From a virus: a DNA stretch of 58,714 bases. The DNA lies in IMG/VR virus record IMGVR_UViG_3300043399_000459, positions 1 through 58,714 of that record; one strand, written 5' to 3'. The translations under genes were made by a program, and so were the position numbers. The notes beneath the pieces were generated by a model that was given only the letters and a program-made list of their open reading frames with translations, was not told the DNA's origin and made no database searches. The stretch's first letter is position 1; every line of letters begins with the position of its first letter. Shown here piece by piece: positions 46,954-57,738 of the stretch.

Positions 46954-49900
46954 TCAGTCCTTGCGATAGCGATGGCACTCGAACCCTGTGGCCGCCAACG
47001 GCAGCCCCAGCGACCAACTCGGGTTCGTCGCCATCATGCCAGCCAACGCCTCCGCCGTGAAGTCCGGAGTGTCAGGCACCTCGCACACAAGCTCGTCGTG
47101 GACGCGCAGGACCACCGGATAGCCCGCCTGCTCGGCGCGGTAGAAGCCGACGAAGAACACGTCGCGGGCAGTAGCCTGCACAACATTCTCGCAGTTGTGC
47201 ACGATCATCGTGTCGCCGTTTTCGCCAGCCACCACAAACCTGCGAAGCGGCCCACTATTCACCAAATCGTAAACTTCCGCGATGTGTCGGGTGCCTCGAA
47301 CAGCCTGCTGTCCGGCACTCCGGTGTTCACTCGATAGTACAGCGTCGTCCGGTTCAGCCCCGATCGGTCTGCCGCTTCCGCAACTGTCATCCGGCCCCAT
47401 GGTGTGTTTATCGGTACGTTCGCCCGCCTGTTTCGGGCCTGCCTCGTGTACGTCGCCCAGACGCAGTTCTGCGGGCTGTATCCTGCGGAATTGTCGCGCC
47501 GCTCTAGCGTCAAGCCCTCCTTGTACGTCGGGCCCATGTCTGCCCAGAAGGCGGAGAAGGAGCGACGCCACTCTTCGCACACTTTGATACCGCGACCGCC
47601 GTAGTTTTTCCAAGCCTGATGCGTAGGCAGCGTGCAACGGTCGATCATGCTCCGCCAGACCGCAAAGGCCTTGTGGTGCGACATCCCGTGCGTCTTGCGC
47701 TTGGTCGATATGGTGTGCCGCTTCATGCACCCGCAGGACGCTTGCACGCCGCGCTTCTGCTGTTTTGTTATCTCGATCGCGGGGAGAATTATCTCTTTCC
47801 CGCATACGCAGCGGAGCGACCACAGTGATCGGCTGCCATCGCTGCCTTGGTAGATCAAAACCGTCAGGTATCCGAGTGTCTGCCCGCTCAAGTCCCTCGC
47901 TCTGTGATGCACGCACCCATCCTTCCGTAGACAGCACTTCATGGTCAGGCGTCATCCAAACGCCATTCAGACAGATTACCTCTTTAATACCCCTCCTGAC
48001 AAGACCCTCGTGCTCGACCCAAGCGCCCCCGTCCCAGAGCTTATGCGTTGTGCTGACATGTTCGATTGGCAGCCATCCGGCGTCTGTCAGTACTAGCGTC
48101 CCCTGTGCTAAGCACAGTTTGCCGTAGTATGTCTCCAGCCACTCCCACTTGCGCGTGAACTGGTTGACACCCTCGTAGAGGATCTTGCCGTCGTCGTTCA
48201 CGTGCATGTTGCGGTAGCATATGTAGCGGCCGCTCGGCAGCTTGCAGCGCACGTACATCGCGCCGTCTGGCCCCTCGCGGCGGTCGAACTGGACGTAGCC
48301 GCGCACGTCGTACGTGTCGCCCACCTCACCCCTGATCGCCTTGCGGCACGCCGCCTCGACGTCGTACCAGAAGGCCTTGGTCGCCGGGTGCGCCTTGCGC
48401 CAGCTCCAGACCACATCTTGCACCTCTTCATCGGACATAGCGTCAACACGAGTGCCGCCCATTTTGCGAAAGGCACCAACGGATCCACCAAATCCACAGT
48501 TATGGACTATCACCGGCCCTGCGTCAGTCAGGATCGCAAACCGATTTCGCGGCCCCACATTGGCAATGTCGTAGACGTTCTTCCAATTCGAGGATGCGGG
48601 CTTGTAGAACTGGGATGCGTCGACCGGGGTTACGATTGGCTCGCCGTCCGATGAAACGGAGATTACCCGGCTCGTAACCCCGGTCGACATCAATTCGATC
48701 AAGCTCGAGTTCTGGTCTATCCCAGCCATCAAGCGTGACAAGATACCTGAGAAAAGCTGCTCGATCTGTTCGCCACGGCTCAAAGACGCGGATGCCTCGA
48801 CTGCCGTAGTTGGTGTAGGCTTTGTCGTTCGGGTTGTGGCACCTGTTGAGGCAAGCGGAGATGCGATTGCACAAACGCCGTCTATGCTCGTCATCTGGGC
48901 ATACGTCTGCATAGCGGAACCACGCTTTTGTCCAACGCCCCGCTTTCTTTTTTGCGCAGCTATTGCAGCGGGTGCTGGCTCCGCGACGGATATTGTGGAT
49001 GTCGGTTCCGTACGGGCCTGCCCCGCAAGAACATTTAACAAGAACAGCTCTAAGTCCTCCGCGAGGGCCGAGATCAAAGCCAACGACTTCAAGCTCTCCG
49101 AACCTGTCGCCAATGCTTGGTCGCGGCAGTTCGGGAAGGTAGCGACCGTCTGGGCCGATTGCCAAGTCTCTCCGCACAAGATGAGATGATCCGGTGTTAT
49201 CTCCACTCCGTCTAGCTGGACGACTTGTCTCCGGCCTCGGTCCACTAGGCCTGTATTTGGCACCCACTCCACTCCGTCCCATAGCAAGTCCTCCGCTGTA
49301 ACCTCTGTAATCAGCTTTACGCCAGTTTTGGTAATAACGCGGGTACGGGGGCCTAGGCAAGCGAGTTCGGATACTTTTCCGGGGTTTTGCCGCTCGTCCT
49401 TCGTTATGTCGCCCGGATCCTTGCCGAGGATGCGCCCGGCGGTGACCTTGTAGAGGTCCGGCCCCTCGCCCCGGTCGTACGCCTTGAAGGCCTCGATCTT
49501 CCACTGCTCGCCCGCCAGCCACGCCAGCACGCGCCCCTCGATGTTCGACAGGTCTGCGATCACGAACTTCTTGCCCGGCTCGGCCACGAGGCAGCCGCGC
49601 ACGGCCATGGAGCAGCGCTCGCTGACATTGCCCCACAGGATGTCGTCGCAGTCCGCCTTGAACGCCGCGACGGTCATCTCCTGTACGTCGCCGTCGAACC
49701 AGTCGGGTGTCCTAGGTAAATTTTGCGGCTGGAAAATACGACCCGCGTCCCTGAGAGTACGTGATGCGCCGCCGTACTGCACGGTTCCCCTAAGCCGCCC
49801 GTCACTCGACACTGCGCCGAGCAAAGCCTTGTACTTCGACGGGCTGGTGGCTGCCGCCTGCTGGCGCATCTTGAGCAGCTTGCGCACCTCTGCGGGCAGC

Positions 49901-50703
49901 TCACCGGCAAGCAGCTTCCCGACGTCGTCCTTGGTCAGGCCCTCGGCGTTGACGCCCAGCTCCGCCATGCGGGCGAGGAGCGCGTTGCGCTGCGTGGTCG
50001 AGCCCAGAGCGCCGCCGGTCAGAAGGGCGGTAGCGTCGGCCAGAGATCGAGAAGCTCGTTCAAAAGCTCGGAGAGCGGATCGGGCGAGTTCTCGGTCGAC
50101 GGCGATACCACTGTCAGAAGTTCTTTGGTCGAGTAGCCAGAACTGGCGCTCAGCCCGATTACAATTCCAATCCGGCAGCCGTCGATATACGGATCGCATC
50201 GCGTCCACATCGAGGCGGGCGTATTCGATGAACCTTTCCCACTCATCCGGGTGCGTCTCCCGCGTAGCTCTGCGAAGCTTCTGGTTCTTGGGCCGGGGCT
50301 TCGAGAACAGTTGTATCAGCTTCTTGCCGTCCTTGTCCTTAGCCTTGTCGGTAGGCACCTCGAGGACGTCACAGAGTTGACCCAGAGACGCAGGCAGCGC
50401 GTGTTGGAGCGCAATTACCATGGTGTCCGTGATTTTATCCACAGGAATATGCACGCCGCGGTGGCGCAGCACGGTGCGGTCAAAGGCGCTGTTGTGGATC
50501 ACGACCTCGTCCGCCGTGTCGATCATGAGCTGCACTGGACCCTTGGCGGCCTGCCAGTCGTCGCTCGTGTCAAGCACCGTCACAGGCTCGTCGTCCCACG
50601 CGTACGCCACCAGCAAGATCTCGGCGTCCTCGGCATAGCGGTGCGCGCCGTGCTTGATGGGGGTGTCGGAGTAGGTCTCGAGGTCAAGATACAGTGTAGA
50701 CAA
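46954..50703 (-). CDS. Family A DNA polymerase with two inteins
   Basis: One open frame of 1249 codons from a TTG start (AGGAGGG 5 bases upstream). Removing two inteins (residues 449-735 and 864-1170) leaves a 655-residue polymerase, the usual size for phage enzymes with exonuclease plus polymerase. The 3'-5' exonuclease has DLET (7-10), HNSAFD (70-75) and YARLDVDAM (161-169). Polymerase motif A is DLSNIEGRVLAWLAGE (384-399). Motif B is rebuilt as GKVSELA/CGFGGSVGAF, and VHDE (1201-1204) is motif C. Both inteins lie in these conserved blocks and both end next to Cys, as splicing requires. An RNA stem upstream may control translation. It is the replicative polymerase. Confidence 0.92.
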   Translation of the reverse strand: MSTLYLDLETYSDTPIKHGAHRYAEDAEILLVAYAWDDEPVTVLDTSDDWQAAKGPVQLMIDTADEVVIHNSAFDRTVLRHRGVHIPVDKITDTMVIALQHALPASLGQLCDVLEVPTDKAKDKDGKKLIQLFSKPRPKNQKLRRATRETHPDEWERFIEYARLDVDAMRSVYRRLPDWNCNRAERQFWLLDQRTSDSGIAVDRELARSALRAFERASRSLADATALLTGGALGSTTQRNALLARMAELGVNAEGLTKDDVGKLLAGELPAEVRKLLKMRQQAAATSPSKYKALLGAVSSDGRLRGTVQYGGASRTLRDAGRIFQPQNLPRTPDWFDGDVQEMTVAAFKADCDDILWGNVSERCSMAVRGCLVAEPGKKFVIADLSNIEGRVLAWLAGEQWKIEAFKAYDRGEGPDLYKVTAGRILGKDPGDITKDERQNPGKVSELACLGPRTRVITKTGVKLITEVTAEDLLWDGVEWVPNTGLVDRGRRQVVQLDGVEITPDHLILCGETWQSAQTVATFPNCRDQALATGSESLKSLALISALAEDLELFLLNVLAGQARTEPTSTISVAEPAPAAIAAQKRKRGVGQKRGSAMQTYAQMTSIDGVCAIASPLASTGATTRTTKPTPTTAVEASASLSRGEQIEQLFSGILSRLMAGIDQNSSLIELMSTGVTSRVISVSSDGEPIVTPVDASQFYKPASSNWKNVYDIANVGPRNRFAILTDAGPVIVHNCGFGGSVGAFRKMGGTRVDAMSDEEVQDVVWSWRKAHPATKAFWYDVEAACRKAIRGEVGDTYDVRGYVQFDRREGPDGAMYVRCKLPSGRYICYRNMHVNDDGKILYEGVNQFTRKWEWLETYYGKLCLAQGTLVLTDAGWLPIEHVSTTHKLWDGGAWVEHEGLVRRGIKEVICLNGVWMTPDHEVLSTEGWVRASQSEGLERADTRIPDGFDLPRQRWQPITVVAPLRMRERDNSPRDRDNKTAEARRASVLRVHEAAHHIDQAQDARDVAPQGLCGLAEHDRPLHAAYASGLEKLRRSRYQSVRRVASLLLRLLGRHGPDVQGGLDARAARQFRRIQPAELRLGDVHEAGPKQAGERTDKHTMGPDDSCGSGRPIGAEPDDAVLSSEHRSAGQQAVRGTRHIAEVYDLVNSGPLRRFVVAGENGDTMIVHNCENVVQATARDVFFVGFYRAEQAGYPVVLRVHDELVCEVPDTPDFTAEALAGMMATNPSWSLGLPLAATGFECHRYRKD
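47194..48114 (-). mobile_element. Intein 2 in the DNA polymerase (307 aa)
   Basis: It starts at Cys864 (CLAQGTLVLTDAGWLPIEHV), has block B NGVWMTPDHEVL, block F VYDLVNSGPLRRFVV and ends MIVHN before Cys1171. It interrupts YGKL/CENVVQATARD just before the catalytic motif C region. Between block B and block F the intein frame reads as Arg/Asp/Ala-rich sequence without motifs. This is because an HNH endonuclease is encoded there in the next frame (47259-47942). The splicing blocks resemble those of intein 1 (LWDG, WV, GLV.RG, TPDH), so the two inteins are related. Confidence 0.88.
47259..47942 (-). CDS. HNH homing endonuclease out of frame inside intein 2
   Basis: The 227-residue frame is shifted +1 relative to the polymerase. 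It has a zinc-like CVCG ... CGC pair, the HNH-type block KNYGGRGIKVCEEWRRSFSA, LTLERRDNSAGYSPQNCVWA, ARNRRAN and a C-terminal helix-turn-helix-like part (MTVAEAADRSGLNRTTLYYR). This is the common phage HNH homing family. The ATG at 47942 lies inside the codons for intein block B (PDH), and the stop lies in block F (VYDLV). Later starts before RDLSGQ are possible. All of the gene lies within the intein, so nearly 700 bp are dual coding. Confidence 0.85.
   Translation of the reverse strand: MKCCLRKDGCVHHRARDLSGQTLGYLTVLIYQGSDGSRSLWSLRCVCGKEIILPAIEITKQQKRGVQASCGCMKRHTISTKRKTHGMSHHKAFAVWRSMIDRCTLPTHQAWKNYGGRGIKVCEEWRRSFSAFWADMGPTYKEGLTLERRDNSAGYSPQNCVWATYTRQARNRRANVPINTPWGRMTVAEAADRSGLNRTTLYYRVNTGVPDSRLFEAPDTSRKFTIW
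48499..49359 (-). mobile_element. Intein 1 in the DNA polymerase (287 aa)
   Basis: It starts at Cys449 (CLGPRTRVITKTGVKLITEV), has block B GVEITPDHLIL, block F VYDIANVGPRNRFAILTDAG and ends VIVHN before Cys736. It splits motif B (GKVSELA/CGFGGSVGAF). The in-frame middle (about residues 515-700) is Ser/Thr/Ala-rich, with no LAGLIDADG or in-frame HNH motif. The endonuclease is instead encoded in another frame at 48524-49177. Confidence 0.9.
48524..49177 (-). CDS. HNH homing endonuclease out of frame inside intein 1
   Basis: The gene is in the third frame relative to the polymerase (the other endonuclease uses the second). GTG 49177 gives 217 residues, and TTG 49165 (GGAG 4 bases upstream) is an alternative. 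The start is uncertain. The frame is open to 49636, but that part is shadow. The product has VKCSCGAG ... CNSCAKK zinc-type cysteines, NRISACLNRCHNPNDKAY, NYGSRGIRVFEPW, LELDRIDVDRGYEPGNLRF and a coiled C-terminus ending RHCQCGAAKSVCDPD, a recognisable phage HNH family. Its last codons overlap intein block F. Confidence 0.85.
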   Translation of the reverse strand: MRRDLAIGPDGRYLPELPRPSIGDRFGELEVVGFDLGPRGGLRAVLVKCSCGAGPYGTDIHNIRRGASTRCNSCAKKKAGRWTKAWFRYADVCPDDEHRRRLCNRISACLNRCHNPNDKAYTNYGSRGIRVFEPWRTDRAAFLRYLVTLDGWDRPELELDRIDVDRGYEPGNLRFIGRRANRNPGRRIPVLQARILELEERLRHCQCGAAKSVCDPD

Positions 50704-50707
50704 GAAA

Positions 50708-50794
50708 GCCCTCCTCTTTTGGAGAGGCGCGCAGCGGTTTCAGCAACACGAGGAGACCCCACGTTCCGCTGCGCACCTCACCAAAAGGGAGGGC
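50708..50794 (-). promoter_or_regulatory. Long RNA stem-loop burying the polymerase ribosome site
   Basis: Arms 50708-50737 and 50766-50794 are inverted copies. As RNA they form about 29 pairs with one G-U, one mismatch and one bulged base, around a 28-nt loop. The proximal arm contains AGAGGAGGGC, the ribosome site of the TTG start at 50703. A smaller alternative hairpin (CCTCT/AGAGG) is possible. It looks like a translational switch, reminiscent of the T4 polymerase operator. Confidence 0.7.
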
Positions 50795-50826
50795 TGCCGG
50801 TCCCAAGGCAGCAGGGACCGACAGCC
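50792..50826 (-). terminator. Stable hairpin downstream of the GapR-like gene
   Basis: GGCTG-C-CGGTCCC (50792-50804) pairs with GGGACCG-A-CAGCC (50814-50826), 12 bp with one mismatch. On the minus strand it is followed by CCTCCCTTTT, a weak U-tract. It may attenuate transcription between the GapR-like and polymerase genes, and it partly adjoins the long stem. Confidence 0.5.
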
Positions 50827-50838
50827 CAAGGTATAGCG

Positions 50839-51093
50839 TCAGATAAGGTCCATGCCAAGCTCATCCGCGTAAAGGTTCAGGATAGCGTTGCGCTCCCTGA
50901 GATCGTCCGGCTTCAGCTTCCTGAGCCGCACGATTTCACGCATGATCTTGGCGTCGTATCCGACCGCCTTGGCCTCTGCGTAGACGTCCTTGACGTCGTC
51001 GGCGATGGCCTTCTTCTCCTCCTCCAGCCGCTCTACTCGCTCCACGAGCAGCCGGAGGCGGTCGTTCGCCGTGCTTTCGCGCCCCGTACTCAC
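50839..51093 (-). CDS. GapR-like DNA-binding protein (DUF2312)
   Basis: The 84-residue protein matches GapR/DUF2312: a coiled-coil N-terminus (LRLLVERVERLEEEKKAIAD), DVKDVYAEAKAVGYDAKIMR, then EIVRLRKLKPDDLRERNAIL. GapR of Caulobacter is a ring-forming protein that clamps overtwisted DNA in front of forks and RNA polymerase and stimulates topoisomerases. A phage copy next to polymerase and SSB could do the same on phage DNA. Its start overlaps the SSB stop by four bases. Confidence 0.85.
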   Translation of the reverse strand: MSTGRESTANDRLRLLVERVERLEEEKKAIADDVKDVYAEAKAVGYDAKIMREIVRLRKLKPDDLRERNAILNLYADELGMDLI

Positions 51094-56286: not shown

Positions 56287-57738
56287 TCATATCAGCGCGA
56301 TAAGGTCGTCGACCATTTGAATGCGTTCACCGATCCAGCGCATTACTGGCACTGCCATGCTGTTGCCCAGCGCCTTGTAGCGCGGGCCATCAGGACACTG
56401 GTCGGCGTTTTTCTTGCGCCACGGGATCGCCGTGAAGCCATCAGGAAAGCCCTGCAGTCTTTCACACTCGACAGGGGTGAGGCGGCGCACCGCGCTGGCG
56501 GCAACATAGCTGCGGCTTGATCCACCGCTCGCTGCGCGGATGTTCGCTGTATCGTGCGGGCCTTCAAATTGGGCGCCGCCTTCTCGACCGCGCATATCAA
56601 AAGCCACGGCAGGCGTTTGCGACTTGATGAGCGCAGGTGCGAACCCATCAGTCACTTCAAGGTTTTGCGTTGAGCCTCTCTGCCGTTCAAAAGCCACCAC
56701 ATCCGGGCCTCTGTCCGCGCACGAGCTGCTGTCATAACGCCGGGTCAAAGTGCGGGCGGTGCCATCTTCGCTGAACGTGGCTACCGCTTGCGGCACGGTG
56801 CGTGCCTCCATTGTGTACGCAACATCGTCGCTGCGTATTCCAATACCGTCAGGACCAGCATCGGGGTTCTCGCTAATCGCGCGCTCCTGTATTGCGTATG
56901 CCACACAGGACGCAGTGTCCTGATCATTACGCGCCGCTACCGTCTTCGACACGCCTGAAGTCTCCTGCTGGTTGTAGCAGTCGAACGCTATGACGTTTTC
57001 GTCCTTGTTGTGGCCCGTGCCTGAGTTGGCCAAGGAGGAGGTGATCGCATTGGCGGTACCAGCAGCCCACTTTACAGAAGATCGCTGCCCTCCGGCAACC
57101 GCTGCAAAGTTGTCGCTGTCCTCTCTGTGACTGCTCTGAGACTGCGCTCTAAGGCTGCGGGCAACGCCTTGCCCCTTTTCTCTGCGCGGCGCAGGATGCC
57201 CTGACAGGCTGTGGCGCTCAAAAAGAACCGCTGCGGCACGGCGCCAGTCTCCAAGGTATCCGACAACAAACACACGGCGGCGTCGCTGGGCCACTCCGAA
57301 GTACTGAGCGTCCAGCACTCGGTAGGCGAGGCCGTACCCGAGGTCTTCCAGCGCCCCGAGGATGGAACCAAAGTCCCGTCCTCCGTTCGATGACAAGACA
57401 CCGGGGACGTTTTCCCAGACGATCCAACGAGGCCGCTCTCTCTGAGCAAGTCGGCAAAACTCAAGCGCGAGGTTACCACGCTCGTCGTCCAGTCCTCCTC
57501 GGAGGCCTGCGACGCTGAAGGATTGGCAGGGTGTCCCGCCAACGAGGAGATCAATTTTGCCATACTGGTTCTGCTCAATAGTGGTGAAGTCGCCGTGTAG
57601 GGGAACCTCCGGGTAGCGGTGTTCTAGCACCGCCCGGGGAAACGCCTCTATCTCGGAAAAGAACGCAGGCTCCCACCCCATGTGGTGCCACGCCATCGTC
57701 GCGGCCTCAATGCCGCTGCAAACCGATCCGTAACGCAT
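56287..57738 (-). CDS. DNA (cytosine-5) methyltransferase
   Basis: The 483-residue C5-methyltransferase has motif I VCSGIEAATMAWHHMGW, motif IV GGTPCQSFS with catalytic Cys71, motif VI WENVPG, motif VIII QRRRRVF and motif IX/X PVECERLQGFPDGF ... ALGNSMAVPVMRWIG. It methylates phage DNA, probably against host restriction. The target-recognition part (about 170-400) is unusually long and rich in Ser/Asn/Asp, and no restriction nuclease gene lies nearby, so it is an orphan enzyme. Confidence 0.93.
   Translation of the reverse strand: MRYGSVCSGIEAATMAWHHMGWEPAFFSEIEAFPRAVLEHRYPEVPLHGDFTTIEQNQYGKIDLLVGGTPCQSFSVAGLRGGLDDERGNLALEFCRLAQRERPRWIVWENVPGVLSSNGGRDFGSILGALEDLGYGLAYRVLDAQYFGVAQRRRRVFVVGYLGDWRRAAAVLFERHSLSGHPAPRREKGQGVARSLRAQSQSSHREDSDNFAAVAGGQRSSVKWAAGTANAITSSLANSGTGHNKDENVIAFDCYNQQETSGVSKTVAARNDQDTASCVAYAIQERAISENPDAGPDGIGIRSDDVAYTMEARTVPQAVATFSEDGTARTLTRRYDSSSCADRGPDVVAFERQRGSTQNLEVTDGFAPALIKSQTPAVAFDMRGREGGAQFEGPHDTANIRAASGGSSRSYVAASAVRRLTPVECERLQGFPDGFTAIPWRKKNADQCPDGPRYKALGNSMAVPVMRWIGERIQMVDDLIALI

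Follow-up and report, generated by a model that had tools for sequence, protein, structure and literature searches.

Genetic context of the element

The stretch of viral DNA analysed here (the window, 58,714 nucleotides) codes on its minus strand for a GapR-like protein followed by a DNA polymerase. The region between the stop codon of the first gene (50839) and the TTG start of the second (50703) carries an element predicted to fold into two adjacent hairpins. The succession of GapR-like gene and element is also found in the relatives that bear the element. The two flanking genes are:

50839..51093, minus strand: gene of a GapR-like (DUF2312) DNA-binding protein (Pfam GapR_DNA-bd, E = 4.7e-31), with the element right after its stop codon
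46954..50703, minus strand: family A DNA polymerase gene with a TTG start and two intein-like insertions

The TTG codon (50703-50701), considered the polymerase start in the initial annotation, agrees with the starts of polymerase homologues (M-x-x-L-Y-L-D-L-E-T). The nearest named phages are the Caulobacter phages RW, KcrB, RLK and GB2A, whose polymerase is 57% identical, and the host of the window phage is likely an alphaproteobacterium.

The intein-like insertions of the polymerase ORF (49359-48499 and 48114-47194, minus strand) have 287 and 307 amino acids. Both feature a cysteine at their start and the residues VHN at their end, followed by a cysteine. When the two are removed the polymerase has 655 amino acids, the same length as its relatives. 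The first insertion holds a perfect 17-bp inverted repeat (48619-48635 / 48672-48688) with a gap of 36 nt. Elsewhere in the window, a C-5 cytosine methyltransferase (56287-57738, minus strand) has its N- and C-terminal motifs separated by a long additional stretch and also matches a PHROG labelled primase.

Anatomy of the two-hairpin leader

The leader RNA is composed of hairpin P1 (50827-50791) and, directly downstream, hairpin P2 (50792-50709), both on the minus strand and with bases shared between P1 and the P2 foot. Its features are:

50791..50827, minus strand: hairpin P1, GGGCTGTCGGTCCC / GGGACCGGCAGCCC, 14 pairs and a 9-nt loop, predicted by folding and kept with different letters in relatives
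50709..50792, minus strand: long hairpin P2, with a lower helix holding the Shine-Dalgarno sequence (SD), a 1x1 mismatch, an upper helix and an apical domain, defined by a covariance model match (50792-50710) and covariation
50781..50792, minus strand: P2 lower helix, 5' strand (anti-SD, CCTCCC...), partner 50722-50710
50780, minus strand: recurrent non-canonical pair, 5' side U, opposite U 50723
50723, minus strand: recurrent non-canonical pair, 3' side U, opposite U 50780
50766..50779, minus strand: P2 upper helix, 5' strand, partner 50737-50724, from covariation and the model alignment
50724..50737, minus strand: P2 upper helix, 3' strand, from covariation and the model alignment
50748..50764, minus strand: inner helix P3, ACG-U-GG / CC-U-CGU, seen in the plus-strand fold and enclosing the letters CTCCTC
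50739..50747, minus strand: apical 3' bulge GTTGCTGAA (consensus GUUGCUGAU), which in most relatives complements the start region, here by GAAA/UUUC only
50709..50715, minus strand: SD AGGAGGG, sequestered in P2, 5 nt before the TTG start

P2 is the stem described in the initial annotation and forms the second half of the leader. Its arms, 50794-50766 (5') and 50737-50708 (3') in mRNA sense, pair nearly perfectly as had been claimed, the irregularities being one bulged A, the U·U mismatch 50780/50723 and one G·U pair. The AGGAGGG ribosome site is located in the 3' arm (50715-50709), and the CTCCTC motif that had been noticed in the loop (50755-50750) is part of the small P3 helix. A short P3-like helix was recognised by inspection also in L155 and other relatives. 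That description was correct for the stem itself but overlooked the GC hairpin P1, a conserved TATA box upstream and the recurrence of the non-canonical pair.

Folding of the region 50690-50830 yields a minimum free energy of -70 kcal/mol, compared to -43.5 ± 3.9 kcal/mol for shuffled sequences; the z-score of -6.8, obtained by folding the plus strand, is not equalled by any of 200 shuffles. The sense-strand fold reaches -86.5 kcal/mol over a 149-nt stretch, and the P2 stem ranks among the strongest short-range inverted repeats of the window. The SD is predicted to be hidden, as had been proposed, with a mean probability of being unpaired of 0.15 for the window (relatives: 0.13).

Conservation and distribution

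Relatives were gathered with the polymerase as query, and some of them show both hairpins ahead of the gene. A loop pattern search added more, giving about 45 distinct phage elements once chance matches were removed, and a wider polymerase alignment yielded divergent ones. The two-hairpin architecture thus found by sequence, GapR and polymerase searches recurs in many viral contigs. Read in mRNA sense, family members usually have a TATA box, P1, the P2 lower helix with the SD, an unpaired 1x1 position, the P2 upper helix (10-15 bp), a small P3, the 3' bulge (consensus GUUGCUGAU) and the start codon. The length of P2 is consistently ~23-26 bp, with its single mismatch near the middle.

Covariation across relatives, one of the checks put forward in the initial annotation, is strong and of the kind left by RNA pairing. 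Among 24 divergent sequences that exclude the window, 97.4% of the cells in P2 are paired and 16 of its 21 pairs changed on both sides, while on each of the five measures used the real alignment surpasses all 500 shuffles. Sliding the partner by one column lowers P2 pairing to 42-45%. A covariance model built from the same 24 relatives matches the window over its full length (1-84) with 63.9 bits (E = 2.4e-16); the next-best site within the window scores only 12.6 bits, so that it holds no second element. With this model the element is detected in 77 of 80 polymerase relatives; of the three without a match, two are contigs that start inside the polymerase. The element is present in single copy in 10 long phage contigs. 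Comparison of these relatives shows that P1 and P2 are maintained as RNA by almost every phage of the polymerase clade. The fold is shared by about a hundred related sequences of viruses, and since the same shape is kept with different letters it is very probably a real RNA switch, not described before, for the genes that copy the viral DNA.

The 1x1 position between the lower and upper P2 helices was studied with a descriptor blind to letters (a long helix with one unpaired position, P1 upstream and any mismatch permitted), which gave 61 distinct matches. The set was limited to C·A, U·U and C·U after inspection of the few others, so that 52 matches were kept; the nine dropped, which had other mismatches (one case C·C/C·T lacking the other features), were judged unrelated by sequence and position. 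The 52 kept elements have C·A in 33 cases, U·U in 17 and C·U in two, the unpaired state itself being required by the search. The window has the family mismatch as U50780·U50723.

Searches outside this group of phages were negative. Rfam 15 gave no family match at gathering score for the window and five relatives, and none came near gathering at a lax threshold, while blastn of one relative's element against annotated phages found no match. The polymerase search of genome contigs, aimed at prophage hosts, produced one 71% match on a 4.2-kb MAG contig and others of at most 56% identity, none of them with the element. No close polymerase was found in 385 genomes of one class, in a search that had no positive control. 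The element was also considered as a general companion of GapR, an idea rejected by its absence from 74 other GapR-bearing phage loci.

Selection on the RNA strand

G·U and A·C oppositions were counted as isolated mismatches in distinct contexts, with the register fixed by Watson-Crick pairs only. In P1 G·U occurs in 16 distinct contexts and A·C in one. The counts for P2 are 10 and 8, several of the A·C cases coming from spurious extension past the helix. The covariance model scores 63.9 bits on the sense strand of the window versus 41.4 bits on the antisense strand, and in the relatives the sense strand prevails every time, by about 15-45 bits. The tolerance of P1 to G·U and not to A·C argues for selection acting on the operon's own transcript. 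A DNA-level element, either the origin cruciform suggested in the initial annotation or a single-strand replication origin, would suit inverted repeats lying in a replication gene cluster beside a GapR-like gene, but it is highly improbable given this 16:1 asymmetry, the strand preference of the model and the lack of a GC-skew switch at the site.

Candidate promoter

Two short motifs upstream of P1 could form a promoter:

50830..50835, minus strand: TATACC, conserved TATA box, candidate -10, 2-4 nt before P1
50853..50858, minus strand: TTGGCA, -35-like hexamer of a candidate promoter, inside the end of the GapR-like gene

A TATA motif near P1 occurs in 34 of the 39 distinct sequences of the element, compared to 5 of the 74 GapR loci that lack it, and most relatives have the arrangement TTGGCN-N17-TATANN. 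The conservation of the -35-like hexamer is confounded because it also encodes conserved GapR residues. A consensus promoter scan did not report the sigma-70 candidate. The predicted transcript start would lie inside P1 and cut the P1 foot, whose pairs covary. The two motifs do no more than suggest a sigma-70 promoter, the TATA box pointing to a transcript that may begin near P1. In L002 and L003 (same contigs as L206 and L208) a deletion cuts the GapR-like gene short and eliminates the TATA box together with half of P1, leaving P2 and its tail intact.

Genes downstream of the element

P2 holds the SD of the next gene throughout, with the start codon 5-17 nt downstream in nearly all of the 77 relatives and across several different downstream genes. 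The gene following the element is the polymerase in 37 of them. In the other 40 it codes for a ~97-amino-acid protein (MKLTIPQIRDL...), a protein starting MIKAIETRYKGYRFRSRLEARW, a QueD-like protein or others, and the polymerase follows within about 1 kb. The element therefore belongs to the operon and not strictly to the polymerase gene, which weakens its reading as a polymerase-only operator. Its position is fixed beside GapR instead of beside one downstream gene, and it may also have a role in the upstream mRNA.

The QueD-like gene is found directly behind the element in L071 and L087, while in L119 it is preceded by GapR and a hairpin resembling P1, with P2 absent, hinting that deazaguanine metabolism genes may enter the slot behind the element.

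Pairing between the bulge and the start region

Among 48 variants, 31 have an apical bulge that can pair with the start region over at least 7 consecutive bases, and the longest complementary run averages 7.5 over all 48, compared to 3.9 with shuffled tails. Bulge and start carry matched changes: GCTGATAC/GTATCAGC, GCTGATAAC/GTTATCAGC, GCTGATCC/GGATCAGC, which extends to GCTGATCC(TT)/(AA)GGATCAGC, and GTTGCTGACA/TGTCAGCAAC. Bulge and tail are about 45 nt apart and recombination could have carried matched haplotypes together.

The bulge-start pairing and the SD helix should be mutually exclusive on geometrical grounds, because the closed lower part of P2 keeps the tail from spanning ~24 bp to reach the bulge. 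The duplex energies of the two helices are -13.8/-14.0 in L055, -16.6/-13.8 in L103 and -19.0/-14.4 in L008. Exclusive and nearly isoenergetic helices suggest a two-state switch in the relatives that have the bulge-start pairing. Membership of the family does not depend on this complementarity. In the window the run is only 4 bp (GAAA/UUUC, -3.6 kcal/mol), which is not above chance, and since the pairing is absent there and in about a third of the relatives it cannot be the general mechanism. A trans-acting role, in which the bulge would target other mRNAs, found no support: TATCAGC is not placed before other start codons.

Possible mechanisms

The element is probably a conserved leader RNA that acts in cis on the replication operon of the phage and works as a translational lock, with a competing start-site pseudoknot in most relatives. 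P2 encloses the SD of whatever gene comes next, and its closed form would cause poor translation of the first cistron of the polymerase operon, setting the timing or the amount of replication protein. In most relatives the apical bulge could pair with bases beside the start codon only if the lower helix containing the SD opens. Two exclusive states are then probable, one with the SD locked and one with a start-site pseudoknot, in the manner of rpsO/S15, and a putative factor recognising the upper helix, the mismatch and the bulge would shift the balance between them. The window phage has the SD lock and no significant bulge-start pairing. A more specific form of this reading can be proposed tentatively: a new class of double-lock leader RNA for the replication operon in which hiding of the SD in the 24-bp stem with its non-canonical pair opposes bulge-start pairing, a replication protein or a host factor switching the states.

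Simple equilibrium opening of P2 is implausible. The great stability of the hairpin implies that some active factor, a phage replication protein or the host RNase III, would have to open the lock. A helix of the length of P2, which amounts to about two turns of double-stranded RNA, is sufficient for RNase III. Cleavage of P2 by the host enzyme, which would free the SD and set the 5' end and the stability of the polymerase mRNA, is a serious possibility, if short of an even chance. The length of ~23-26 bp with one mid-helix mismatch is suitable, the stem is too stable to open spontaneously, and a precedent is listed for phage lambda, whose translational repression by N is modulated by RNase III (Wilson et al. 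2002, listed in PMC5725501). Processing alone leaves the conserved bulge letters and the bulge-start complementarity unexplained. It can coexist with the translational lock.

The initial annotation proposed autoregulation of the T4/RB69 type, with the polymerase binding the leader RNA and repressing its own translation. The element is in the polymerase operon, directly before the polymerase in the window, the polymerase clade and the element occur together, and T4 gp43 acts in this way through a hairpin of its own (PMC3014915). Such autoregulation is nonetheless unlikely here. The gene context does not favour it, a different gene following the element in 40 of 77 relatives, and the polymerase belongs to family A, not B. 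Structure and position also differ: the operator of T4 gene 43 is a hairpin of 18 bases located some 40 nt ahead of the gene (PMC3014915), and not a 24-bp stem that contains the SD.

An antiterminator resembling HK022 put, whose two nascent-RNA hairpins would bind RNA polymerase and allow terminator read-through in a long operon, is very doubtful. Two adjacent stem-loops close to a conserved TATA box, possibly a promoter, recall put, whose two stem-loops include a C·A pair (PMC9378689), the resemblance being one of architecture. Put has about 70 nt versus about 120 in this leader, and it needs neither an SD inside its second hairpin nor a start codon 5-17 nt away.

Relation to known systems

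The rpsO/S15 operator replaces its double hairpin with a start-site pseudoknot. The complementarity and the energy balance of the phage leader fit this behaviour in most relatives, not in the window, and the exclusivity of the two states is deduced from geometry. The rpsO (S15) leader is described as a pseudoknot translational operator (PMC3014915). Compared to E. coli rpsO, the phage element has a different sequence, a much longer SD stem and a place in a phage replication operon, and the window lacks the pseudoknot.

T4 gene 32 is likewise a phage replication gene whose translation is controlled by a leader RNA fold: a pseudoknot 67 nt upstream nucleates cooperative binding of gp32 over an A+U-rich site (PMC3014915). 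The difference is that here the SD lies inside a 24-bp stem. The T4/RB69 gene 43 operators are, like the element, hairpins in the RNA ahead of a phage DNA polymerase. They have 18/16 bases and precede a family B polymerase, with no second hairpin or recurrent mismatch pair described, while in the present family the long stem overlaps the SD, 5-17 nt from the start. In lambda, RNase III modulates the translational repression of a phage gene by way of the structured N leader; that gene is an early regulator and N/Nus-dependent. In HK022 put, two neighbouring stem-loops open the transcript of a phage operon; this RNA acts on RNA polymerase and does not sequester an SD. None of these nearest known systems (T4 gene 43, gene 32, lambda N, put) has the defining anatomy of the element.

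The Caulobacter phages RW, KcrB, RLK and GB2A share the gene order DUF2800, DUF2815, GapR-like protein and polymerase. Phage RW, the one examined, also has two adjacent hairpins with the SD inside the second (L195:3904-4001). This second hairpin ends in a triloop and lacks the P3/bulge domain, and the covariance model does not match the leaders of the four phages. No description of the Caulobacter phage leader as an RNA element was found.

Very few systems of autoregulatory leader RNAs are known, to our knowledge, for phage replication genes. According to a 2010 review, translational autoregulation by a viral pseudoknot may be confined to the T4-type gene 32 (PMC3014915). The element described here is an RNA family new to Rfam that is nearly fixed in one clade of phages with GapR, and its covariation is strong. 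Because the site around the mismatch and the bulge is conserved, a specific protein or processing partner can be tested for directly, and the cultivable Caulobacter phages with their reduced leader are a starting point.
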